DNA from: Desulforadius tongensis
Lineage (GTDB): Bacteria; Bacillota; Desulfotomaculia; Desulfotomaculales; Desulfohalotomaculaceae
DNA: 42,887 bases
NCBI RefSeq assembly: GCF_016907915.1
Contig: NZ_JAFBCW010000023.1
Coordinates: 1-42,887, forward strand
Direction: 5' to 3'
The notes under the pieces are model-generated. The model had not been told where the DNA came from and ran no database searches. It saw nothing but the letters and a program-made list of their open reading frames with translations. This document shows, piece after piece, positions 18,798 to 32,505 of the stretch. A program made the position numbers and the translations under genes. Numbering within the stretch: the first letter of the stretch is position 1; each line of letters begins with the position of its first letter.

Positions 18798-19214
18798 ATG
18801 AAAACAAGATTTTTTATTTACGGCCTGCTGGGCTGGGGGTTAGAGGTGTTTTGGACCGGGTTCGAATCGGCCCTTAGCGGAGACCCCCGTCTAACCGCAC
18901 ATACTTACCTGTGGATGTTTCCCATTTATGGATTGGCAGTGTTTTTAGAACCGCTGCATAATGCCATTCGTAGATACCCCTGGTTTATACGGGGAATGGT
19001 GTGGGTGCTGGTTATCTTTGCCCTGGAGTATTCCACCGGTGGGTTAATCAGGTTAATTACCGGCTATAGCCCCTGGAACTATTCCGGAACCTCGCCGTGG
19101 GAAATACACGGCTTAATTCGCCTGGATATGGCCCCGCTGTGGTTTATAACCGGTTTTATCTTTGAACAGGTTCATGACTATTTAACCCGGCGGTTAAATT
19201 TACAGGGGCGCTAA
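18798..19214 (+). CDS. CmpB-type (COG4905) putative permease-like membrane protein
   Basis: 138 aa with about four helices. FFIYGLLGWGLEVFW at the N-terminus, YLWMFPIYGLAVFLEPL and the C-terminal LWFITGFIFEQVHDYL match the small membrane protein family PF06541, often labelled putative ABC permease. No ABC partner is nearby and true transport function is doubtful. It has only a weak ribosome site (AACTCC), so expression may be low. Its end overlaps the convergent gene at 19211 by four bases. Confidence 0.7.
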   Translation: MKTRFFIYGLLGWGLEVFWTGFESALSGDPRLTAHTYLWMFPIYGLAVFLEPLHNAIRRYPWFIRGMVWVLVIFALEYSTGGLIRLITGYSPWNYSGTSPWEIHGLIRLDMAPLWFITGFIFEQVHDYLTRRLNLQGR

Positions 19215-19741
19215 TCCTTACCTGTCATCTCTTTATAAGCACCCACATGGGCAAAATTCTGTTTAATATGTTCAACCAGCCGCTGCCAATCTTCCTCGCT
19301 GCGTGTGGATTCAATTAAAGCGTTAACCACAAAGGAATCGGTTAGGGCTTCCACCATGGTCTGTAATTTTTGCTCACATTCCCCGCGCAGTTTTCCTCTT
19401 ACAAAATAACGATTTATCTGTTTAACAGCCCAGTCAGAGAGAACTTGATCAGGCACCACAAAAGGTAAAAACTTGTGCGCCTGCTCAGTAATGCGCAGTA
19501 TTGCACGCCGGTCTTTTTCCGGTGTAATGTGGCGAATGGTTTGAACCAGCTGCTCTGGTCCCATTTTTAACGCCTTGTTTAATAATTTATATTCAAACTT
19601 TGTAGCGGTAAACAGCCCTTTTTCCCTGGCCCGCACCACCATGCGGCGAAATTTTTCCACTTCTTCCAGCAGAATGTCTTCATTATCAATTATTATATAA
19701 GCGGTTAAGAAATCACATCTCTGCAGCTCAATATTCATCAT
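19211..19741 (-). CDS. 176-aa hypothetical helical protein
   Basis: Predominantly helical soluble protein. Segments include EEVEKFRRMVVRAREKGLFT, GPEQLVQTIRHITPEKDRRA and RGECEQKLQTMVEALTDSF. No domain is recognised. AGGAGG five nt upstream supports the first of two ATGs. It follows the ATP-grasp gene 29 nt away in the same direction and could be the last gene of the glycan run, although nothing in its sequence ties it to that pathway. Confidence 0.65.
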   Translation of the reverse strand: MMNIELQRCDFLTAYIIIDNEDILLEEVEKFRRMVVRAREKGLFTATKFEYKLLNKALKMGPEQLVQTIRHITPEKDRRAILRITEQAHKFLPFVVPDQVLSDWAVKQINRYFVRGKLRGECEQKLQTMVEALTDSFVVNALIESTRSEEDWQRLVEHIKQNFAHVGAYKEMTGKD

Positions 19742-19770: not shown

Positions 19771-20814
19771 CTACCCCGGTGAGAGAAATTCAAAACAGGT
19801 ATTAAAGCACTGGGAGGAAGTAAGGTTATTAACTCGTTCAAGGGGTATAACATAGTCTGTGTACTGCCTTATCACTACTCCTCGGCCGGCAGTGGGTTTG
19901 GTAACTTTTTGGCCCAGTATTTCTGACCTAATCAGCAGTTCCGGTTCCTTTACCCCCAGGGCAATGCGCATGCCGGTGGAACTGCTGAACCGGGGATTAA
20001 TTTCAAAAATATAGGGCTTACCATTCTTAAGACGCAGCTGCAGATTGCACGGGCCATAGCCGCCTAACATTTCAGCCACCCGCTGGCAGTAACTGCAGAT
20101 CTGCGGGTAAGAATCGGCCACCGCCCACATGGTCATACCGTCCTGCAGGCATCTTTTTAAAGCAATACAGGAAAGCACTGTACCCTTTGCTCCCAAACAA
20201 ACCCCCACTGTAAACTCCCCATCATCACCGGGCAAATATTCTTGAATAATATAATCCTTTTTATCCCCGGCAAATTGATTTAACTCCTTGATATTTGATA
20301 AAACAGCCACCCCCCGGGAGCCGGCACCAATGCGGGGTTTGGCCACCAAGGGAAAACCAACCCGTTCTATAAAATCGGGCAGCAGTGCCTTATCCTCCGG
20401 CCATCTCAATGTTTGTGGAAAATAAAAACCATTTTCTTTTAAAAAGTTCAATGTCAGCCATTTATCCTTACATGTGGCAATAACTTCCGGGGAGTGTACG
20501 AAAACCCTGGCCCCGGTTTGCTGAAAAATATAGTCCTTGTGGCGGGCAAAACCCTCAATCTCGTGGGATGAGCCAATCAATATGCCGTGAATTTTTTCCC
20601 GGCGGCAGATATCTATTATTTTATTCAGCCAAATTTCTTCTTTGGATGCCGGCGGCACCAGGTAGCCTTTATGGGCCAGGTACAATCCCAAAGTCATGGC
20701 ATTGGTATCGCAGGCTGTCACCCGGCAGTTCAGCGGCCCGTTGAGCAGTGATTGTATAATTGCCACCCCGTACAGTGATCCGGACCCGGTAACTAAAACG
20801 TTAACCTGTTTCAC
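19771..20814 (-). CDS. ATP-grasp ligase of the CarB-like type
   Basis: 347 aa. An N-terminal Rossmann-like preATP-grasp part (VLVTGSGSLYGVAIIQSLLN) is followed by the ATP-grasp fold: FPLVAKPRIGAGSRGVAVLS with the nucleotide-binding lysine and glycine-rich loop, YIIQEYLPGDDGEF, and the metal-binding KPYIFEINPRFSSSTGMR. Such enzymes join an acyl group to an amine through an acyl-phosphate, often adding an amino acid to a sugar or peptide. GTG start with GGAGG 9 nt upstream. The start overlaps the WbqC-like gene by 14 bases, indicating translational coupling and a shared pathway. The substrate is not known. Confidence 0.85.
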   Translation of the reverse strand: MKQVNVLVTGSGSLYGVAIIQSLLNGPLNCRVTACDTNAMTLGLYLAHKGYLVPPASKEEIWLNKIIDICRREKIHGILIGSSHEIEGFARHKDYIFQQTGARVFVHSPEVIATCKDKWLTLNFLKENGFYFPQTLRWPEDKALLPDFIERVGFPLVAKPRIGAGSRGVAVLSNIKELNQFAGDKKDYIIQEYLPGDDGEFTVGVCLGAKGTVLSCIALKRCLQDGMTMWAVADSYPQICSYCQRVAEMLGGYGPCNLQLRLKNGKPYIFEINPRFSSSTGMRIALGVKEPELLIRSEILGQKVTKPTAGRGVVIRQYTDYVIPLERVNNLTSSQCFNTCFEFLSPG

Positions 20815-21499
20815 CGCTGCATTCCTCCAGAATCTCTTTACTTTTAGGACCGCAGTTGAAAATCAAATCCACCACAGATAGTTTATCAACAAACTGACCC
20901 CACAACTGGCGGTAAGTGGGATGTATAAACTGTTGATACCTCAGCTCTATGCCATGCTGTTTGAAAACCTGCTCATCATTGTACACTTTAGCTCCCTGCC
21001 CGGATAAATAAACACCGGCTCCCAGTTTTTTGCAGATATCAACAATGCGCCGGCTTTTTCTTCCCTGTACATTGGGCAGCTCTGAAGAAAGAACCAGGGG
21101 AGTTTGAATATCTAAAATCTCCCTTATCAGATTAATCATGGCCAGGTTTAAATCCAGCAGTTTCTCCCATTTTTGGCTGTAAACCTGCCTAAACCGTTCT
21201 TTGTAATACTTCCAGTACTTTGAACGTGCGTAGCAGTGCTGTAAAGACTGAAAGTGCCGTTTAGCCCAATTTTCGCTGTTACAAATCAGCACTTCTTTAA
21301 TAAGAACTTTTTTCCGGGCCAGTGGAATGGTTAATAATACGGGTCCGCTGGCGCATTTAATTACGTTACGGTGGGTCACTGATTTTGATGACAGCAGCAC
21401 ATCATCGGCAATTACAAATACATCGCAGTTAAGCATTTTATGAAAGTACCCAATCCACGGTAAATAGTTAGGCTGGTGGATGGCCAGGACTTTAGGCAT
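20801..21499 (-). CDS. WbqC-like family protein
   Basis: 232 aa. The N-terminus VLAIHQPNYLPWIGYFHKML is the hallmark of the WbqC family, followed by CDVFVIADDVLLSSKSVTHR and RNVIKCASGPVLLTIPL. The middle conserved part includes ENWAKRHFQSLQHCYARSKY. WbqC-like genes sit in O-antigen and other surface polysaccharide clusters; the exact reaction is not established, with transfer of an amino-acid or acyl group to a sugar amine being the usual suggestion. It overlaps the aminotransferase by 8 bases and the ATP-grasp gene by 14. Confidence 0.85.
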   Translation of the reverse strand: MPKVLAIHQPNYLPWIGYFHKMLNCDVFVIADDVLLSSKSVTHRNVIKCASGPVLLTIPLARKKVLIKEVLICNSENWAKRHFQSLQHCYARSKYWKYYKERFRQVYSQKWEKLLDLNLAMINLIREILDIQTPLVLSSELPNVQGRKSRRIVDICKKLGAGVYLSGQGAKVYNDEQVFKQHGIELRYQQFIHPTYRQLWGQFVDKLSVVDLIFNCGPKSKEILEECSGETG

Positions 21500-22574
21500 A
21501 ATTATTCACCACCTCAGCAATGTATTGTCGTTGTTCACCAGTAAGGCCGGGATGGACGGGAATGGAAACACACCGCCGGCATATTTTTTCCGCCACCGGC
21601 CAGGATTGGCTGTAATTGAAGTTATCCCGGTACAAACGCTGGTGGGGAATAATTAACGGGTAGTGAACGGCACAGCCAACCCCCTTCTGCTGCAGGTAAG
21701 TAATAAAACGCTCCCTGTTCTTCACCTGTAAAGTAAACTGGTGATAAACGTGGAGGCAGTCTTTGGGTTCACAGGGCAGCACCACCCGGTGGTTATTAAT
21801 GTGCTGCCGGTAATAATGAGCATTGTGTATCCTTTTCCGGTTCAATGATTCTAATTTTTTTAGCTGTGCTATTCCGATGGCCGCATGGATGTTGGTGAGG
21901 CGAAAGTTATATCCCAGTATATGGTGCCGGTAGCGGTGGGATTGGCCGTGATTTATAATCATTCTCACCCGGTCGGCAATTTCCCCGCTGTTGGTAACAA
22001 CCATGCCTCCTTCGCCGCAGGTGATATTTTTAGTGGGGTAAAAACTGTACGCCGCAGCATCGCCAAAGGTGCCTACTTTTTTTCCTTTATATGCTGCACC
22101 GTGAGCCTGGGCACAATCTTCAATTAAGAGCAGGTTATTTTCTTTAACCAGCTGGCAAATTGATTCCATTTCCGCCGGCAGGCCAAAGATGTGCACCACC
22201 AGAACAGCTTTGGCATCGGGATGCTTTTTTATTGCTTGGGCCAGTGCCTTGGGTGAAAGGTTGTAAGTGCAGGGGTCAATATCTACAAACACCGGAATGG
22301 CACCGCAGTACAAAATGGCATTGGCTGAAGCTATAAAAGAAAATGGCGTGGTCAGCACTTTATCCCCCGGGGTTATGGGCAGGGCCTCCATAATGGCATG
22401 CAGGGCTGTGGTTCCCGAAGAAGTGGCAATGGCATACTTAATATTCAAGTACCCGGCAAATTCTGCTTCAAATTGCTGCACATATTTGCCCTGGGCCAGC
22501 ATTTTACTGTTTAATACCTCTATCACTTTTTCCTGCTCTTCTAAACCGATCTGCGGTTCAGCAATGGGAATCAT
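21492..22574 (-). CDS. DegT/DnrJ/EryC1/StrS sugar aminotransferase
   Basis: 360 aa PLP-dependent aminotransferase acting on keto-sugar nucleotides. The Schiff-base lysine is K182 in SFYPTKNITCGEGG. The pyridine-nitrogen aspartate is D153 in IEDCAQAHGA, and TSSGTTALHA binds phosphate. The C-terminal part has GVGCAVHYPLIIPHQRLY, typical of the GnnB/WlbE/ArnB branch. Start chosen at ATG 22574, behind GAGTGAT; the GTG at 22583 is possible. It would aminate the ketone made by the Gfo/Idh/MocA dehydrogenase at 25513. It stands 15 nt downstream of the LpxC-like gene. Confidence 0.92.
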   Translation of the reverse strand: MIPIAEPQIGLEEQEKVIEVLNSKMLAQGKYVQQFEAEFAGYLNIKYAIATSSGTTALHAIMEALPITPGDKVLTTPFSFIASANAILYCGAIPVFVDIDPCTYNLSPKALAQAIKKHPDAKAVLVVHIFGLPAEMESICQLVKENNLLLIEDCAQAHGAAYKGKKVGTFGDAAAYSFYPTKNITCGEGGMVVTNSGEIADRVRMIINHGQSHRYRHHILGYNFRLTNIHAAIGIAQLKKLESLNRKRIHNAHYYRQHINNHRVVLPCEPKDCLHVYHQFTLQVKNRERFITYLQQKGVGCAVHYPLIIPHQRLYRDNFNYSQSWPVAEKICRRCVSIPVHPGLTGEQRQYIAEVVNNYA

Positions 22575-22589
22575 ATTTATCACTCGCTG

Positions 22590-23417
22590 TTATTTAGTTA
22601 TTTTTTTAATCATCTCAATATTTAATTTATGGCCGCTGCGAAAGGCTATAAACTTACCTTTTATATTACAACCGGCAGTACCCAGGTCACCCAGCAAATC
22701 CACCAGTTTATGCCGGGCCGGCTCGTTGGCATATCTCAGCCTGGGGGCTTTGCCTTTAGAAAAAACCAATACCGACTCCATTCCTTTACCGATTAATTCT
22801 GCCACCAGCTGGTATTCCTCCCCCGTTATATAAGAGCGGGCATCTGCCAATTGATTTATAAAAATTTCCCGGTTGATGATATAACTGGCTCCCTGGGAGG
22901 GCAGGGACTGATCTGGATAATCCAAAATATATGTCAGTTCTAAATTCCGGGCGGGCAGGGCAGCAATATACTTATTAAAGCGTTTGCGGCGGTAATAAAA
23001 TTCATCTTTTAACAGGCAGGGTTCTTTTACTTCTATGTACCGTTTCGGTACCTGCTGCTGCTGCAGTCCCACCCGCAGTACTGCCTGCACAAATGCTCTG
23101 CAGCTGTATCCATCCACCACCGGAAGGCTGGAGCAGTTCATGCGCACCACTAAGTTATCTATCCCCATTCCTCTGACAGCTGCCAGCAGGTGCTCTGTAT
23201 GCTCCACCCTGACACCATTCTGCTCCAGTGAAGTCCAGCGGCTGTCTACCAAGGCATCTTCACTGCAGCAGCGCACCACAGGTGTTCCGGGTAAGTCTTC
23301 CCGGATAAATAAAATTCCCGTGTCAGCGGGTGCAGGTTCCAAGGTTATTTTCGCCTCCCCGGTGCCTTTGATATTTATACCCCTGCATTGAACAGGTTTT
23401 TTAACGGTGGTTTGCAT
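22590..23417 (-). CDS. lpxC: LpxC-like UDP-3-O/N-acyl-GlcNAc deacetylase
   Basis: 275 aa zinc deacetylase; in Gram-negatives LpxC commits UDP-3-O-acyl-GlcNAc to lipid A. All known active-site residues can be aligned: E75 and H76 in VEHTEHLLAAVRGMGIDN, zinc ligands H236 and D240 with K237 in ARHKLVDLLGDL, and D244 and H263 in FRSGHKLN. PVVDGYSCRAF matches the conserved DGS region. GGGGGG before ATG 23417 sets the start. It is 2 nt from the CgeB gene's stop and 15 nt from the aminotransferase. No lpxA, lpxD or lpxB is in the window, so lipid A synthesis is not implied; an amino-sugar glycan is more likely. Slightly shorter than the usual 300 residues. Confidence 0.88.
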   Translation of the reverse strand: MQTTVKKPVQCRGINIKGTGEAKITLEPAPADTGILFIREDLPGTPVVRCCSEDALVDSRWTSLEQNGVRVEHTEHLLAAVRGMGIDNLVVRMNCSSLPVVDGYSCRAFVQAVLRVGLQQQQVPKRYIEVKEPCLLKDEFYYRRKRFNKYIAALPARNLELTYILDYPDQSLPSQGASYIINREIFINQLADARSYITGEEYQLVAELIGKGMESVLVFSKGKAPRLRYANEPARHKLVDLLGDLGTAGCNIKGKFIAFRSGHKLNIEMIKKITK

Positions 23418-23419
23418 GT

Positions 23420-24373
23420 TTACCCCCCGCTCAGCAGCAGCTCTTTAGCCCGGTGGCGGTAAGTAAATTTTTCAGTCACTAGTCTGCGGCCCCGGCAGGC
23501 TATTTTTTTACGCTCTGCTTCATGTTTCAAATAATAGTCTACTATTTTTAGCGTTTCTTTTTCTGAACCGGACACAGCCAAATGTTTACCGGGCTGAAAT
23601 ATTTTTCTTATGGCCGGGGTGTCGGAAGCCAGCATGAATCCCCCTGCCGCTGTAATTTCAAAGGTGCGGGCGGTCAATTCGCCGGTGTAACTTTGTATAC
23701 CCAGCACAATTTTGGCGGAACTGTACACCGCATTGGTTTCTTCATAGGGCAGTTTGCCGCATAAGCATTTTTCCGGCACGGAGAAACCCACCAGGTGAGG
23801 ATCCAATTTATCCCAGCGCTTGCCCCATATTTTTACATCGTACCCGTTTTCCACCAGCGGTTTAACTAAAGTGCGCACCGACTGCCGGCGAAACCCCCGC
23901 CAGCTTACCCCGGCGGTGGCAACCACCGCTATATCACAGCGGTATTCTTCCTTCGGCGGTACCGGCCGGTGATACTCGGGATTGCAGGCCCAGGTTATAT
24001 ATGCCGACACCAGCCCCATTTTCCGGTATAGAGAAACTGAACCGGGGTCTATTGTAAATACATGGGTAGGCTTTGTGGTTTCTATATAGGGCAGGGACCA
24101 TTTTTTCGTCCACCTGGGGTCTTCGGTGGCCCAGTAGACGTGCACTAAATTATGCCTTTTGGTAAATGTACCCAGGTTGTTAAGGTTATCCCGGGTGTGT
24201 ATTTTGTTCCACCCGGCGGTAAACAGTACATGGGGCCGGAACAGCTCGTAAGCCAGTTCCAAATCTTCTTCAGCAGCAGTTTTTAATACCAGTACATCAC
24301 ATCCCACTTGGCGCAGTCCTTCAGCCATACCGTTAATGTACTGGGGATCACTGTCCACAAATAATACTCGCAT
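23420..24373 (-). CDS. CgeB-family glycosyltransferase
   Basis: 317 aa GT-B type glycosyltransferase of the CgeB (spore maturation) family. The N-terminal part carries VLFVDSDPQYINGMAEGLR and the family segment VYWATEDPRW, followed by HVFTIDPGS. The C-terminal domain has FVPEKCLCGKLPYEE-like text (GFSVPEKCLCGKLPYEETNA), VLGIQSYTGELTARTFEITA and GFMLASDTPAIRK, the donor-binding region. In Bacillus CgeB is made late in sporulation and works on the spore outer surface. GGGAGG nine nt before ATG supports the start. Confidence 0.85.
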   Translation of the reverse strand: MRVLFVDSDPQYINGMAEGLRQVGCDVLVLKTAAEEDLELAYELFRPHVLFTAGWNKIHTRDNLNNLGTFTKRHNLVHVYWATEDPRWTKKWSLPYIETTKPTHVFTIDPGSVSLYRKMGLVSAYITWACNPEYHRPVPPKEEYRCDIAVVATAGVSWRGFRRQSVRTLVKPLVENGYDVKIWGKRWDKLDPHLVGFSVPEKCLCGKLPYEETNAVYSSAKIVLGIQSYTGELTARTFEITAAGGFMLASDTPAIRKIFQPGKHLAVSGSEKETLKIVDYYLKHEAERKKIACRGRRLVTEKFTYRHRAKELLLSGG

Positions 24374-24502
24374 TAAATTAAGCCTCCCATCCTACCATGA
24401 AAAATGGTATCTTGCTGAGCCGGCGGCTTTTGCAGCGTTTGCCAAAATTCCTCGCCGGCCAAACTCGGTACTCGGTCTGCCGGGGCTTTTCATCCCCCGG
24501 TG

Positions 24503-24519
24503 GTGCCGCAATGCGGCAC
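24503..24519 (-). repeat. GC-rich hairpin between glycan genes
   Basis: GTGCCGC-AAT-GCGGCAC, a perfect 7-bp stem flanked by CCCC (24495-24498) and GGGG (24520-24523), in the 159-base gap between the transferase gene and the CgeB gene. No T tract follows, so it is an RNA structural element rather than an obvious terminator. Confidence 0.5.
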
Positions 24520-24532
24520 GGGGAAATTATAC

Positions 24533-25501
24533 TCAAGATGTTAAACTGCACCTGTAAGCTTCACGCAGCACACCCCTACCACCAAAGCTTTCTTTAAAGT
24601 TAAACAGCCGGGTATTTACCTTTGTGCCCCGGTTTTCAGTGGAAATACCCCAATCTAAATACGTAAAACCGTGCTTTTTACCCCACTCAATTAACCGGTA
24701 AAAAAGTAAATTCAGCGGGCGCAGTGACTGGTAGTTTTCATCTTGGGCAATGTAAAAACAATTTACCGCCCGCCTATTGAGAATAAACACCACCGTACCG
24801 GCTATCAGCTTTTCTTGGTTAAAAACACCGAAAAGTTTAATTTTTCCCTTAAACCGGTTCATTAAATCAATTATTTCGGCATAGGTATGAGTGGGTTTGG
24901 CTTGATGCCGTTCTTTTAAGTTGCGGGTTAAAATCAGCCAATAGGTTTTTACATCATCGGTTTCTCTAACTGTCAGGTTATTTTTTAATGCTTTACGCAC
25001 ATTTCTCAGTACAGTGCTTTTAGCCTTATTGTGGTTATAGTCCTGCAGCGGCACTGCTGTGGCCAGTTCCGTGTATGCCACCTTAAACCCATGGTAGCGG
25101 AGGGCATAATCTATTTCATCACAGGGCCACGTGTGATAAATCCGGGGTACCAGTTTTAATTCCACGGCATCAAAACCTTTTTGTTGGGCAAATTGCTTTA
25201 TTTCAGCCACTACTTCCAGCATGGAGTTGGTTTTAGTCTCATGCCCGATGATAATTCCCCCGTGGGATGCCCCGGGATGGGAATGCAAAACTTTTTTCTT
25301 CCCCTCTTTTTTCTCCGCCGCCGGCAGCACCGCCAGCAGATGCCCTTTATCGCTTAATATTAATAAAGAACGGTCATTAAACCTTTCCGGGGGATGATAA
25401 CTTAAGAACTCGCGCTGCTGCATAAAGGTTCCATTGCGAGAATTCTTAACAAAACTCTCCCACAGCGGGATATCCCCTTCTTCCAAATATTTAACTTTCA
25501 T
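24533..25501 (-). CDS. GNAT/FemAB-like acyltransferase
   Basis: 322 aa double-GNAT-fold protein related to FemAB and CelD/BioF2-type (Acetyltransf_6) transferases. The N-terminal part has WESFVKNSRNGTFMQQREFL. The C-terminal part carries LIAGTVVFILNRRAVNCFYI, LRPLNLLFYRLIEWGKKHGF and YLDWGISTENRGTKVNTRLF, then FKESFGG, all typical of this fold's acceptor site. Such enzymes move an amino acid from tRNA or an acyl group to an amine. Here the amine could be that of an aminated sugar. ATG at 25501 is preceded by AAAGGAG; the longer frame upstream overlaps the neighbour and lacks a site. Confidence 0.8.
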   Translation of the reverse strand: MKVKYLEEGDIPLWESFVKNSRNGTFMQQREFLSYHPPERFNDRSLLILSDKGHLLAVLPAAEKKEGKKKVLHSHPGASHGGIIIGHETKTNSMLEVVAEIKQFAQQKGFDAVELKLVPRIYHTWPCDEIDYALRYHGFKVAYTELATAVPLQDYNHNKAKSTVLRNVRKALKNNLTVRETDDVKTYWLILTRNLKERHQAKPTHTYAEIIDLMNRFKGKIKLFGVFNQEKLIAGTVVFILNRRAVNCFYIAQDENYQSLRPLNLLFYRLIEWGKKHGFTYLDWGISTENRGTKVNTRLFNFKESFGGRGVLREAYRCSLTS

Positions 25502-25512
25502 CTTTTTCTCCT

Positions 25513-26463
25513 TTACAGATATACGATTTGCTTTTTCAGCACTGAACTTTCTATTGCTTCCATCATTTTTATCACTCTTAAAGCACCGGCTCCCCCCGAG
25601 CGGGGCTGTTTTTTGCGGCGAACACAATTTAAAAAATGGGCGCACTGTCGTTGGAGCGGCTTTTCCACCGGTACGGCAACGTTTTGCACTCCAGCATTTG
25701 GCCGGAGGAAGGTCAACTTTGGGCCCGGTTTACGGGTATCATCAAATTCGGCCATCATTTCTGTACCAACAATATTAAGCCGGCGTATTTTTTGGGAGTA
25801 ATGCCAGTTATTATGAATGTGAACCAGGGTATGATCAGAAAAGCCACAGCTAACCAGCAGTATACCCATGGGTAAATCTTCATTCCATTTTATTCCTCTG
25901 GCAGAAACCCACACCGGCTTACTTTCCAGCAGATAAAACATGATGGTTAAATCATGTACTGTTAAATCCCAAAGCACGCTCACATCCTTCCGGTATACAC
26001 TGCAGTTTGTTCGTTCAAAGTTTAGGAATTTAATATCTCCAAAGGCACCCCGGCTAATGTGGTTTTTTAATATCTCCACCGCCGGGTGATATTCCATTAA
26101 ATGACCGGTCATTAAAATTTGTTTATTTTCCTGGGCCAGTCGAACCAGTTTTTCTGTATCTTTCATGTTAGTTGTGGTGGGTTTTTCAACCAGTACCGCT
26201 TTACCGTTAGTTAAACAATCAGCCGCTATTTCATAATGGGAGTGGGGTGGTGTAGCTATTATCACCGCCTGCACATCTGAATCATTTAACAGGGGATGAT
26301 AACTGCCAGTTACTTTAATGTGCGGAAATTTGGCAGCAACCATTTCCCGTACTGCCCGCTTTTGATCGCAAACGTACAGCAGGTTAGCTTCCGGCATGGC
26401 ATTTAACGTACGCAGGTAAGCGCTGCCCCATACCCCACATCCTATTAAAGCAATTCCAATCAT
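25513..26463 (-). CDS. Gfo/Idh/MocA sugar dehydrogenase, GnnA/WlbA-like
   Basis: 316 aa NAD(P)-dependent sugar oxidoreductase. The nucleotide-binding turn is IALIGCGVWGSAYLRTL. The family motif EKP appears in KAVLVEKPTTTN (catalytic lysine), and GHLMEYHPAVEIL and HDLTIMFYLL contain the active-site histidines. It would oxidise a sugar-nucleotide hydroxyl, most likely at C3, to a ketone, the substrate for the DegT enzyme at 21492. GGTGAT before the ATG. It is the first gene of the seven-gene run; no clear sigma-A promoter is seen upstream, which would fit control by a sporulation sigma factor. Confidence 0.88.
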   Translation of the reverse strand: MIGIALIGCGVWGSAYLRTLNAMPEANLLYVCDQKRAVREMVAAKFPHIKVTGSYHPLLNDSDVQAVIIATPPHSHYEIAADCLTNGKAVLVEKPTTTNMKDTEKLVRLAQENKQILMTGHLMEYHPAVEILKNHISRGAFGDIKFLNFERTNCSVYRKDVSVLWDLTVHDLTIMFYLLESKPVWVSARGIKWNEDLPMGILLVSCGFSDHTLVHIHNNWHYSQKIRRLNIVGTEMMAEFDDTRKPGPKLTFLRPNAGVQNVAVPVEKPLQRQCAHFLNCVRRKKQPRSGGAGALRVIKMMEAIESSVLKKQIVYL

Positions 26464-26636
26464 TTTTAATCACCACATTAACAAGTTCTTTTGTAGTATA
26501 TACTCGGGTAACTAAAATAGTGATATTTATTGCAATAATTTCCAAAAAATCAGTTAAAGTGGTCTGATAACAAGTTAAATTTTATGAATATTCCGGGAGA
26601 TTAATCATTTATTTATAGTGAGAGGAGTGTTGACAG

Positions 26637-27353
26637 ATGGGAAAAATAAAAAAACGTAGAAAACTGAAGAAGCGCAATAAAAAGATAAAAAATAATTATA
26701 CCGGGTCGGTACCGCAAACAGGTTCTAAAGTAAAGAAATTTATTCCGCCAAAAATGGAAACTACGGCGGTGGTTTTAGGGCCCAACGCCGGTTACGCAAA
26801 ACGGGTGAAAAAATTTGACACCAAGGCCGCTTTTGTACCACCAAGCTGTATTATTTCCAGGGAAACCACCGCAGCACCAAGGGCAGAGTTTTCATCTCCG
26901 TCCCCGCCAGAGCATAAACCCAGTCCCCCGCTCATTGGTCCCAATCCAAAAAAGCGCCGCAAAAAACCATTTGGAGATAATAAAGTTTTTGTACCTGCCA
27001 GCTGCATTATCAATCCTGTGTTTAAACAGTCAGTGAGCAGTTATGACTGGCGCAGTGTATTCCCCAAACCCATATGCCTGGAAAAGGTAGGCGAAATAAT
27101 TGGACCCACCATAAAGTTCCGCCATAAAAAGCAAAAAAAAATCGGCATTTCTTTTGTTCCCAGCAGCTGCATTATTAATACTCCGTTAAGGGCAGAAAAA
27201 ACCTGTACAGGTACAGGGGAACAAAAGGATGCCCTCCAGGCACTGGCCCAGCTCCCCCCCGCTTCTAAACAAAGGGCCGGAAATGGTTTGTACCTGATTA
27301 CCGCCGCTGTAATTATAATTGTTGTTTTAGCTATTCTTATGACTAATAGTTAA
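26637..27353 (+). CDS. repeat protein with FVPxSCII units and C-terminal membrane anchor
   Basis: 238 aa protein unlike any family I know. A very basic N-terminus (GKIKKRRKLKKRNKKIKNN) is followed by three imperfect units, each made of a GPN/GPT turn, a Lys/Arg cluster and the octapeptide FVP-x-SCII: residues 48-73 (FVPPSCII), 101-125 (FVPASCII) and 156-180 (FVPSSCII). A single C-terminal helix (LYLITAAVIIIVVLAILM, about 218-235) makes it a tail-anchored protein with the repeats probably on the cytoplasmic side. AGGAG nine nt before ATG. It diverges from the glycan run, sharing a 173-bp intergenic region; a spore-structure role is only an inference. Confidence 0.8.
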   Translation: MGKIKKRRKLKKRNKKIKNNYTGSVPQTGSKVKKFIPPKMETTAVVLGPNAGYAKRVKKFDTKAAFVPPSCIISRETTAAPRAEFSSPSPPEHKPSPPLIGPNPKKRRKKPFGDNKVFVPASCIINPVFKQSVSSYDWRSVFPKPICLEKVGEIIGPTIKFRHKKQKKIGISFVPSSCIINTPLRAEKTCTGTGEQKDALQALAQLPPASKQRAGNGLYLITAAVIIIVVLAILMTNS

Positions 27354-32373: not shown

Positions 32374-32390
32374 GTAAAAATACACTTTAT

Positions 32391-32478
32391 CCTTCCCTAC
32401 GCGGGCATTACCCCGATCAGGTTTTAAGGGTCTGGTGCTCACTAGCCCACTCTCAGCCTATAACATAGACTCCCCCAG
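32391..32478 (-). ncRNA. TPP riboswitch aptamer
   Basis: On the minus strand the conserved thi-box elements occur in order: GGGGGAGTC, GGCTGAGAGTGG, ACCCTTAAAACCTGATC, GGGGTAATGCCC and GCGTAGGGAAGG. This is the TPP aptamer core (CTGAGA, ACCTGATC and GCGTAGGGAA). It is followed 18 nt later by the attenuator and then by the thiN-thiXYZ operon. Confidence 0.95.
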
Positions 32479-32505
32479 AACTTATTCAATTACAGCCACA
32501 GTAGT

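Follow-up and report, generated by a model that had tools for sequence, protein, structure and literature searches.

LpxC is regarded as a hallmark of lipopolysaccharide (LPS) and is also an antibiotic target. A 42,887-nt stretch of Desulforadius tongensis DNA (contig NZ_JAFBCW010000023.1 of assembly GCF_016907915.1; hereafter "the window," meaning the whole stretch) raises a question, which is what an LpxC homolog, here called LpxC2, does in the middle of a run of seven genes in a spore-forming bacterium. The answer that we prefer, to which we assign a probability of about one half, is that the run is a late-sporulation mother-cell operon that would build a modified 2,3-diamino sugar and transfer it onto the spore surface. 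This reading is carried by sequence-level observations, namely the gene set, its co-inheritance, the intact active site of LpxC2, the lack of matches to the other LPS genes sought, and the coat-gene and promoter context.

A conserved seven-gene set

The genes run on the minus strand from 26463 down to 19771 (Table 1), the same span that had been given in an initial annotation made from the letters alone. The seven families named there were borne out by Pfam, with Gfo/Idh/MocA, GNAT Acetyltransf_6, DUF3880 plus Glyco_trans_1_2, LpxC, DegT, WbqC, and ATP-grasp all scoring above cut-off. FemAB is supported weakly, as the FemAB model itself reaches 1.9e-4, below its cut-off. Successive intergenic distances are 11 nt (Gfo-FemAB), 159 nt (FemAB-CgeB), 2 nt (CgeB-LpxC), 6 nt (LpxC-DegT), -8 nt (DegT-WbqC), and -14 nt (WbqC-ATP-grasp), the last four being the overlaps or near-zero gaps that had been described for the distal part. 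The seven genes look like an operon, and the FemAB gene probably starts at the ATG at 25501 rather than at 25645.

The complete set stands together in at least 16 genomes: that of the window, ten relatives of its order, Sporomusa acidovorans, and four Clostridia. These counts are lower bounds; most matches in the sequence-alignment search for LpxC were Bacteroidota LpxC with HTEHLLA, and a single-sequence search of genome contigs with LpxC2 gave no match. Within the order of the window, the LpxC family scores above cut-off in 11 genomes, including that of the window, and the other six genes adjoin it in all 11. All seven genes are likewise present in S. acidovorans and in Clostridiales bacterium GWB2_37_7, where degT is interrupted by unread bases, and three further seven-gene genomes occur among 391 of the class to which GWB2_37_7 belongs. 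The hosts are sparsely scattered spore-forming bacteria. Because all seven genes co-occur in 15 genomes other than that of the window, their joint presence is, judged from sequence, not due to chance.

The initial annotation had asked whether the genes form a conserved neighborhood in relatives, and they are not scattered there. Three gene orders occur among the 16 clusters, so the set has been kept despite changes in order. Decay was seen in only two genomes. In G606, one of the three further seven-gene genomes, the lpxC reading frame is broken, and G054, a twelfth genome of the window's order, holds a decayed copy consisting of short remnants of the gfo, cgeB, lpxC, and ATP-grasp genes, with LpxC only as a fragment. 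In both of the genomes labeled f4, cgeB has been relocated to the end of the cluster and is followed there by a second wbqC (L026 14415-15101; L029 14463-15149).

Pairwise identities of the seven families co-vary across the 13 genomes compared (mirror-tree r 0.82-0.97). For all seven Sporomusa proteins, the closest counterpart is in G028 or G070. Together, this co-varying divergence and the shared nearest genomes of the Sporomusa proteins suggest that the seven-gene block has been transferred as a unit.

LpxC2 apart from LPS

A tree of 41 sequences places the LpxC proteins of the clusters in a single clade, which a branch with 100/100 support separates from LPS-type LpxC of diderm Bacillota. 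The separation is also evident in a phylum sample of 398 genomes, where other LpxC matches score at most 208 bits versus at least 450 among cluster-type LpxC from the class of the window. Seven residues (E75, H76, S195, H236, K237, D240, and H263) are invariant in all 15 cluster LpxC sequences checked. They align with the Zn-binding and catalytic positions of solved LpxC structures, and the serine occupies the place of Thr191 in E. coli LpxC.

The genome of the window, which is 99.6% complete, has a single LpxC and gave no match to LpxA (PF13720), LpxB (PF02684), or Omp85/BamA (PF01103). Given that these three are missing, the gene content indicates that the cluster is not one for LPS synthesis, and the bacterium itself appears to have no Gram-negative-type outer membrane. 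S. acidovorans carries one LPS-type LpxC and one cluster-type LpxC, and none of the other six cluster genes lies near the LPS-type LpxC genes of diderm Bacillota.

Stray LpxC genes of this kind have been noticed before. The singleton lpxC of Desulfotomaculum acetoxidans and a homolog of LpxC in Peptococcaceae bacterium DCMF have been linked to a "paralogous lpxC2 gene region," which is separate from the main cluster for LPS, and these genes were suggested to be remnants with possible roles in stress or virulence (PMC11448272, 2024). The window resembles those cases in having a singleton LpxC homolog in a monoderm member of the Bacillota, but the main text of that report names neither a seven-gene operon nor a spore role. 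In the open-access literature, we found no report of the full operon, of a spore role for an LpxC homolog, or of the function of the WbqC family. The initial annotation's statement that no pathway with this exact set had been described thus fits the literature searched, with the qualification that the lpxC gene had already been seen.

Predicted chemistry

Among NCBIfam models, the best for the Gfo protein is UDP-N-acetylglucosamine (UDP-GlcNAc) 3-dehydrogenase (NF040723), and second among the nearest Protein Data Bank (PDB) sequences of the DegT protein is QdtB, a C3 aminotransferase. The AlphaFold model of the Acetyltransf_6 protein has a predicted local distance difference test (pLDDT) score of 90, and its Foldseek comparison points to a FemX double-GNAT fold. 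Peptide synthases, FemX, and FemA make up the eleven best matches (E 2.5e-16 to 6.1e-15; template modeling score 0.66-0.70 on the query), and the nearest structures are aminoacyl-tRNA-dependent peptide synthases solved with streptothrisamine. The CgeB-type assignment comes from DUF3880 and Glyco_trans_1_2, both above their Pfam cut-offs, and PDB sequence searches gave no match for either CgeB or WbqC. The WbqC model had no significant Foldseek match, and its best VIA-align hit is glutamyl-tRNA synthetase (GluRS; Z 9.0, 151 aligned, 3.2 A). This is a weak resemblance of the predicted fold to class I aminoacyl-tRNA synthetase/nucleotidylyltransferase (adenylyltransferase) domains, which we use as a lead only. 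The ATP-grasp protein scores above the cut-off of NF009402.

From these families we infer the enzymatic steps, their order, the acceptor, and the timing. The Gfo enzyme would oxidize C3 of UDP-GlcNAc and the DegT enzyme would aminate it, the two acting as a pair like GnnA and GnnB. The FemX-like enzyme would then take the role of LpxA and acylate the 3-amino group, with aminoacyl-tRNA as the most likely donor of an aminoacyl group, after which LpxC2 would take off the 2-N-acetyl group. The ATP-grasp ligase, WbqC, or both might later place an acyl group or amino acid on the freed amine. The product would be a 2,3-diamino sugar nucleotide related to the lipid A precursor, and CgeB would finally attach the sugar to the maturing spore, with a coat protein or a glycan as acceptor. 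More tentatively, we propose that the pathway reuses the first lipid A steps on the spore surface with a tRNA-dependent FemX-like transferase in place of LpxA, and that monoderm spore-formers might make a nucleotide sugar of 3-N-aminoacyl-2,3-diamino-2,3-dideoxyglucose (3-N-aminoacyl-GlcN3N) for display on their spores.

GnnA and GnnB convert UDP-GlcNAc toward GlcN3N in Acidithiobacillus (PMC8036547). At the level of families, the cluster resembles that system in co-inheriting a Gfo-type oxidoreductase and a DegT-type transaminase in one cluster, and it shares an LpxC-type deacetylase with the early lipid A pathway (LpxA-LpxC). It differs from the latter in that its host has no recognizable LpxA, LpxB, or Omp85, a FemX-like transferase would stand in the place of LpxA, and LpxC2 forms a separate clade.

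Spore context and promoter

In two genomes (G017 and G029), a pair of CotE proteins flanks a gene with a kinase fold a few kilobases from the cluster; we call this gene cotS-like, a presumptive name, as Pfam gives APH. A multicopper oxidase is encoded near the cluster of GWB2_37_7. SpoIVA is present in 10 of the 11 cluster genomes searched (the window and nine of ten others), and the exception, G066, is 84% complete.

A sigma-K-like pattern, AC-N16/17-[ACT]ATAnnnTA, was sought within 110 nt of the first gene of each cluster and before 137 control genes, these being other genes from the same loci with room for a promoter. Of the 16 clusters, 13 have the full pattern ahead of their first gene, compared with 8 of 137 controls, and half of the eight positive controls are themselves cotE or cotS-like genes. 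It is significant only in the comparison across clusters and in no single upstream region. Patterns for sigma-E, sigma-A, sigma-G, and sigma-H gave no consistent signal upstream of Gfo.

Dedicated sugars on spores have precedents. The CgeA/CgeB system of Bacillus subtilis, which glycosylates the spore crust, resembles the cluster in its CgeB-type glycosyltransferase (by Pfam domains) and in the late mother-cell control that we propose, but no CgeA was recognized, and to our knowledge the B. subtilis system has no diamino-sugar or LpxC genes. Special sugars on the spore surface are likewise known from Bacillus anthracis, where anthrose has its own gene set, and from Clostridioides difficile, where the SgtA/BclA3 glycan depends on a dedicated glycosyltransferase, SgtA. 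As far as we know, these systems use other enzymes and other sugars, with no LpxC.

Weighing the alternatives

Several points weigh against the spore-surface reading. The cluster of the window has no recognized coat gene adjacent to it. The -10 element [ACT]ATAnnnTA alone is present in 16 of 16 clusters but also in 41 of 137 controls, and by itself could fit other sporulation sigma factors. The full pattern was loosened after 13 upstream regions had been inspected, and among three regions found later it occurs in one, with the -10 element in all three. Moreover, the Fisher value for the difference from controls (4e-11) is drawn from related genomes that are not independent. As to chemistry, the Gfo match falls below the cut-off of NF040723 and the DegT protein also matches NCBIfam models of C4 aminotransferases, so the C3 chemistry of the pair is a candidate rather than proved. 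The roles proposed for WbqC and the ATP-grasp protein are guesses.

The strongest competing explanation, which we nevertheless consider rather unlikely, is that the operon serves to modify the surface of vegetative cells (S-layer, capsule, or flagellin), its links to spores being incidental. All of the enzyme families also serve vegetative glycans, and in the f4 genomes nucleotide-sugar genes and other glycosyltransferase genes lie near the cluster. In addition, SpoIVA is found in 75 of 80 genomes of the order, so that co-occurrence with sporulation says little and gives a spore role weak support. Such a function fits poorly with the cotE and cotS-like neighbors in two genomes and with a sigma-K-like promoter pattern common to the clusters and those cot genes. 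No flagellar or S-layer gene was recognized beside the clusters in lists of open reading frames, where most neighbors had not been scanned for families.

It is less probable still that the pathway yields a soluble sugar-amino acid conjugate, in the manner of streptothricin-type compounds or thiol cofactors, instead of a surface glycan. Mycothiol synthesis follows a logic of deacetylation and then amide ligation, and the cluster could be read in the same way. The streptothrisamine-bound peptide synthases nearest to the FemAB protein and the aminoacyl-tRNA synthetase-like predicted fold of WbqC would also suit such a product. A CgeB-type transferase and coat-gene neighbors argue for a surface role instead, as does a conserved set that includes no exporter or resistance gene. 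Finally, although singleton lpxC genes in genomes with no other lpx genes (here and in PMC11448272) and the remnants in G054 could suggest that LpxC2 has no settled role and is left over from an LPS outer membrane since lost, this is very improbable given an invariant active site, seven genes kept together, block transfer that reached a diderm with its own LpxC, and decay confined to G054 and the lpxC of G606.

Thus, the spore-surface operon that we favor is the interpretation of the initial annotation strengthened, though unproved. Its placement on the spore gained coat-gene neighbors in two genomes, a sigma-K-like promoter, and SpoIVA in nearly all cluster genomes searched, and its di-amino sugar fits the enzyme families; both parts are partly supported.

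Neighboring elements

The gap between the FemAB and CgeB genes is filled by a dispersed repeat whose copies occur in either orientation, for the most part in spacers separating unrelated genes. It folds better than shuffled sequences (z -2.6) and belongs to no Rfam family; BTH_s39 scored 18.8 bits where the cut-off is 77 and was rejected as its identity. Relatives with the same gene order have little or no gap at this place, and the repeat is probably outside the system.

An eighth gene, encoding a 176-aa protein with no Pfam or NCBIfam match, starts 29 nt beyond the end of the ATP-grasp gene; only four close relatives share it at that position. The divergent Lys/Arg-rich protein has a hydrophobic C-terminal segment and at least three FVPxSCII repeats; speculatively, it might be an acceptor or partner in the family of the window. 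In G028, a Lys/Arg-rich FVPxSCII protein is encoded on another contig (L116 1252-2232) beside what by eye is a ytxC-like sporulation gene. The thiamine pyrophosphate (TPP) riboswitch is ordinary, lying upstream of genes that by eye encode an apparent thiamine pyrophosphokinase and an ATP-binding cassette (ABC) transporter.

Table 1. Features of the window, with the evidence for each
Feature	Position	Strand	Evidence
Gfo/Idh/MocA dehydrogenase	25513..26463	-	Pfam 4.7e-26; NCBIfam NF040723 7e-47, below cut-off
FemX-like aminoacyl-tRNA-type acyltransferase (predicted)	24533..25501	-	Pfam Acetyltransf_6, weak FemAB; AlphaFold model; Foldseek
CgeB-type glycosyltransferase (DUF3880 + Glyco_trans_1_2)	23420..24373	-	Pfam 2.4e-32 and 1.3e-12
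LpxC2, LpxC-family deacetylase	22590..23417	-	Pfam 1.7e-60; tree; active-site alignment
DegT/DnrJ/EryC1/StrS sugar aminotransferase	21492..22583	-	Pfam 2e-123; PDB sequence neighbors
WbqC-like protein	20801..21499	-	Pfam 1.2e-74; model pLDDT 87
ATP-grasp ligase (PylC/CarB-like)	19771..20814	-	Pfam ATPgrasp_Ter 6e-14, PylC-like_N; NCBIfam NF009402 1.7e-89
Conserved protein (eighth gene)	19211..19741	-	Downstream of ATP-grasp gene in G001-G004
Dispersed intergenic repeat between FemAB and CgeB	24374..24532	-	36 full or partial matches in own genome
Sigma-K-like promoter, AC-N17-TATATACTA (late mother-cell type)	26494..26521	-	Pattern comparison across clusters
Divergent Lys/Arg-rich protein, FVPxSCII repeats	26637..27353	+	Divergent beside cluster in four genomes
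TPP riboswitch	32377-32486		78.8 bits

Implications

As far as we have checked, what is new here is the fixed seven-gene set, its apparent transfer as a block, and the sequence evidence that would tie the set to late sporulation. The product of the operon is probably an unusual amino sugar destined for the spore surface. If this is true, the stray lpxC2 genes found in monoderm Bacillota would be accounted for by an operon that keeps an LpxC relative, its active site intact, outside LPS synthesis and in association with coat genes. Such an operon would likewise give the WbqC family a testable role and provide a new spore sugar to look for.

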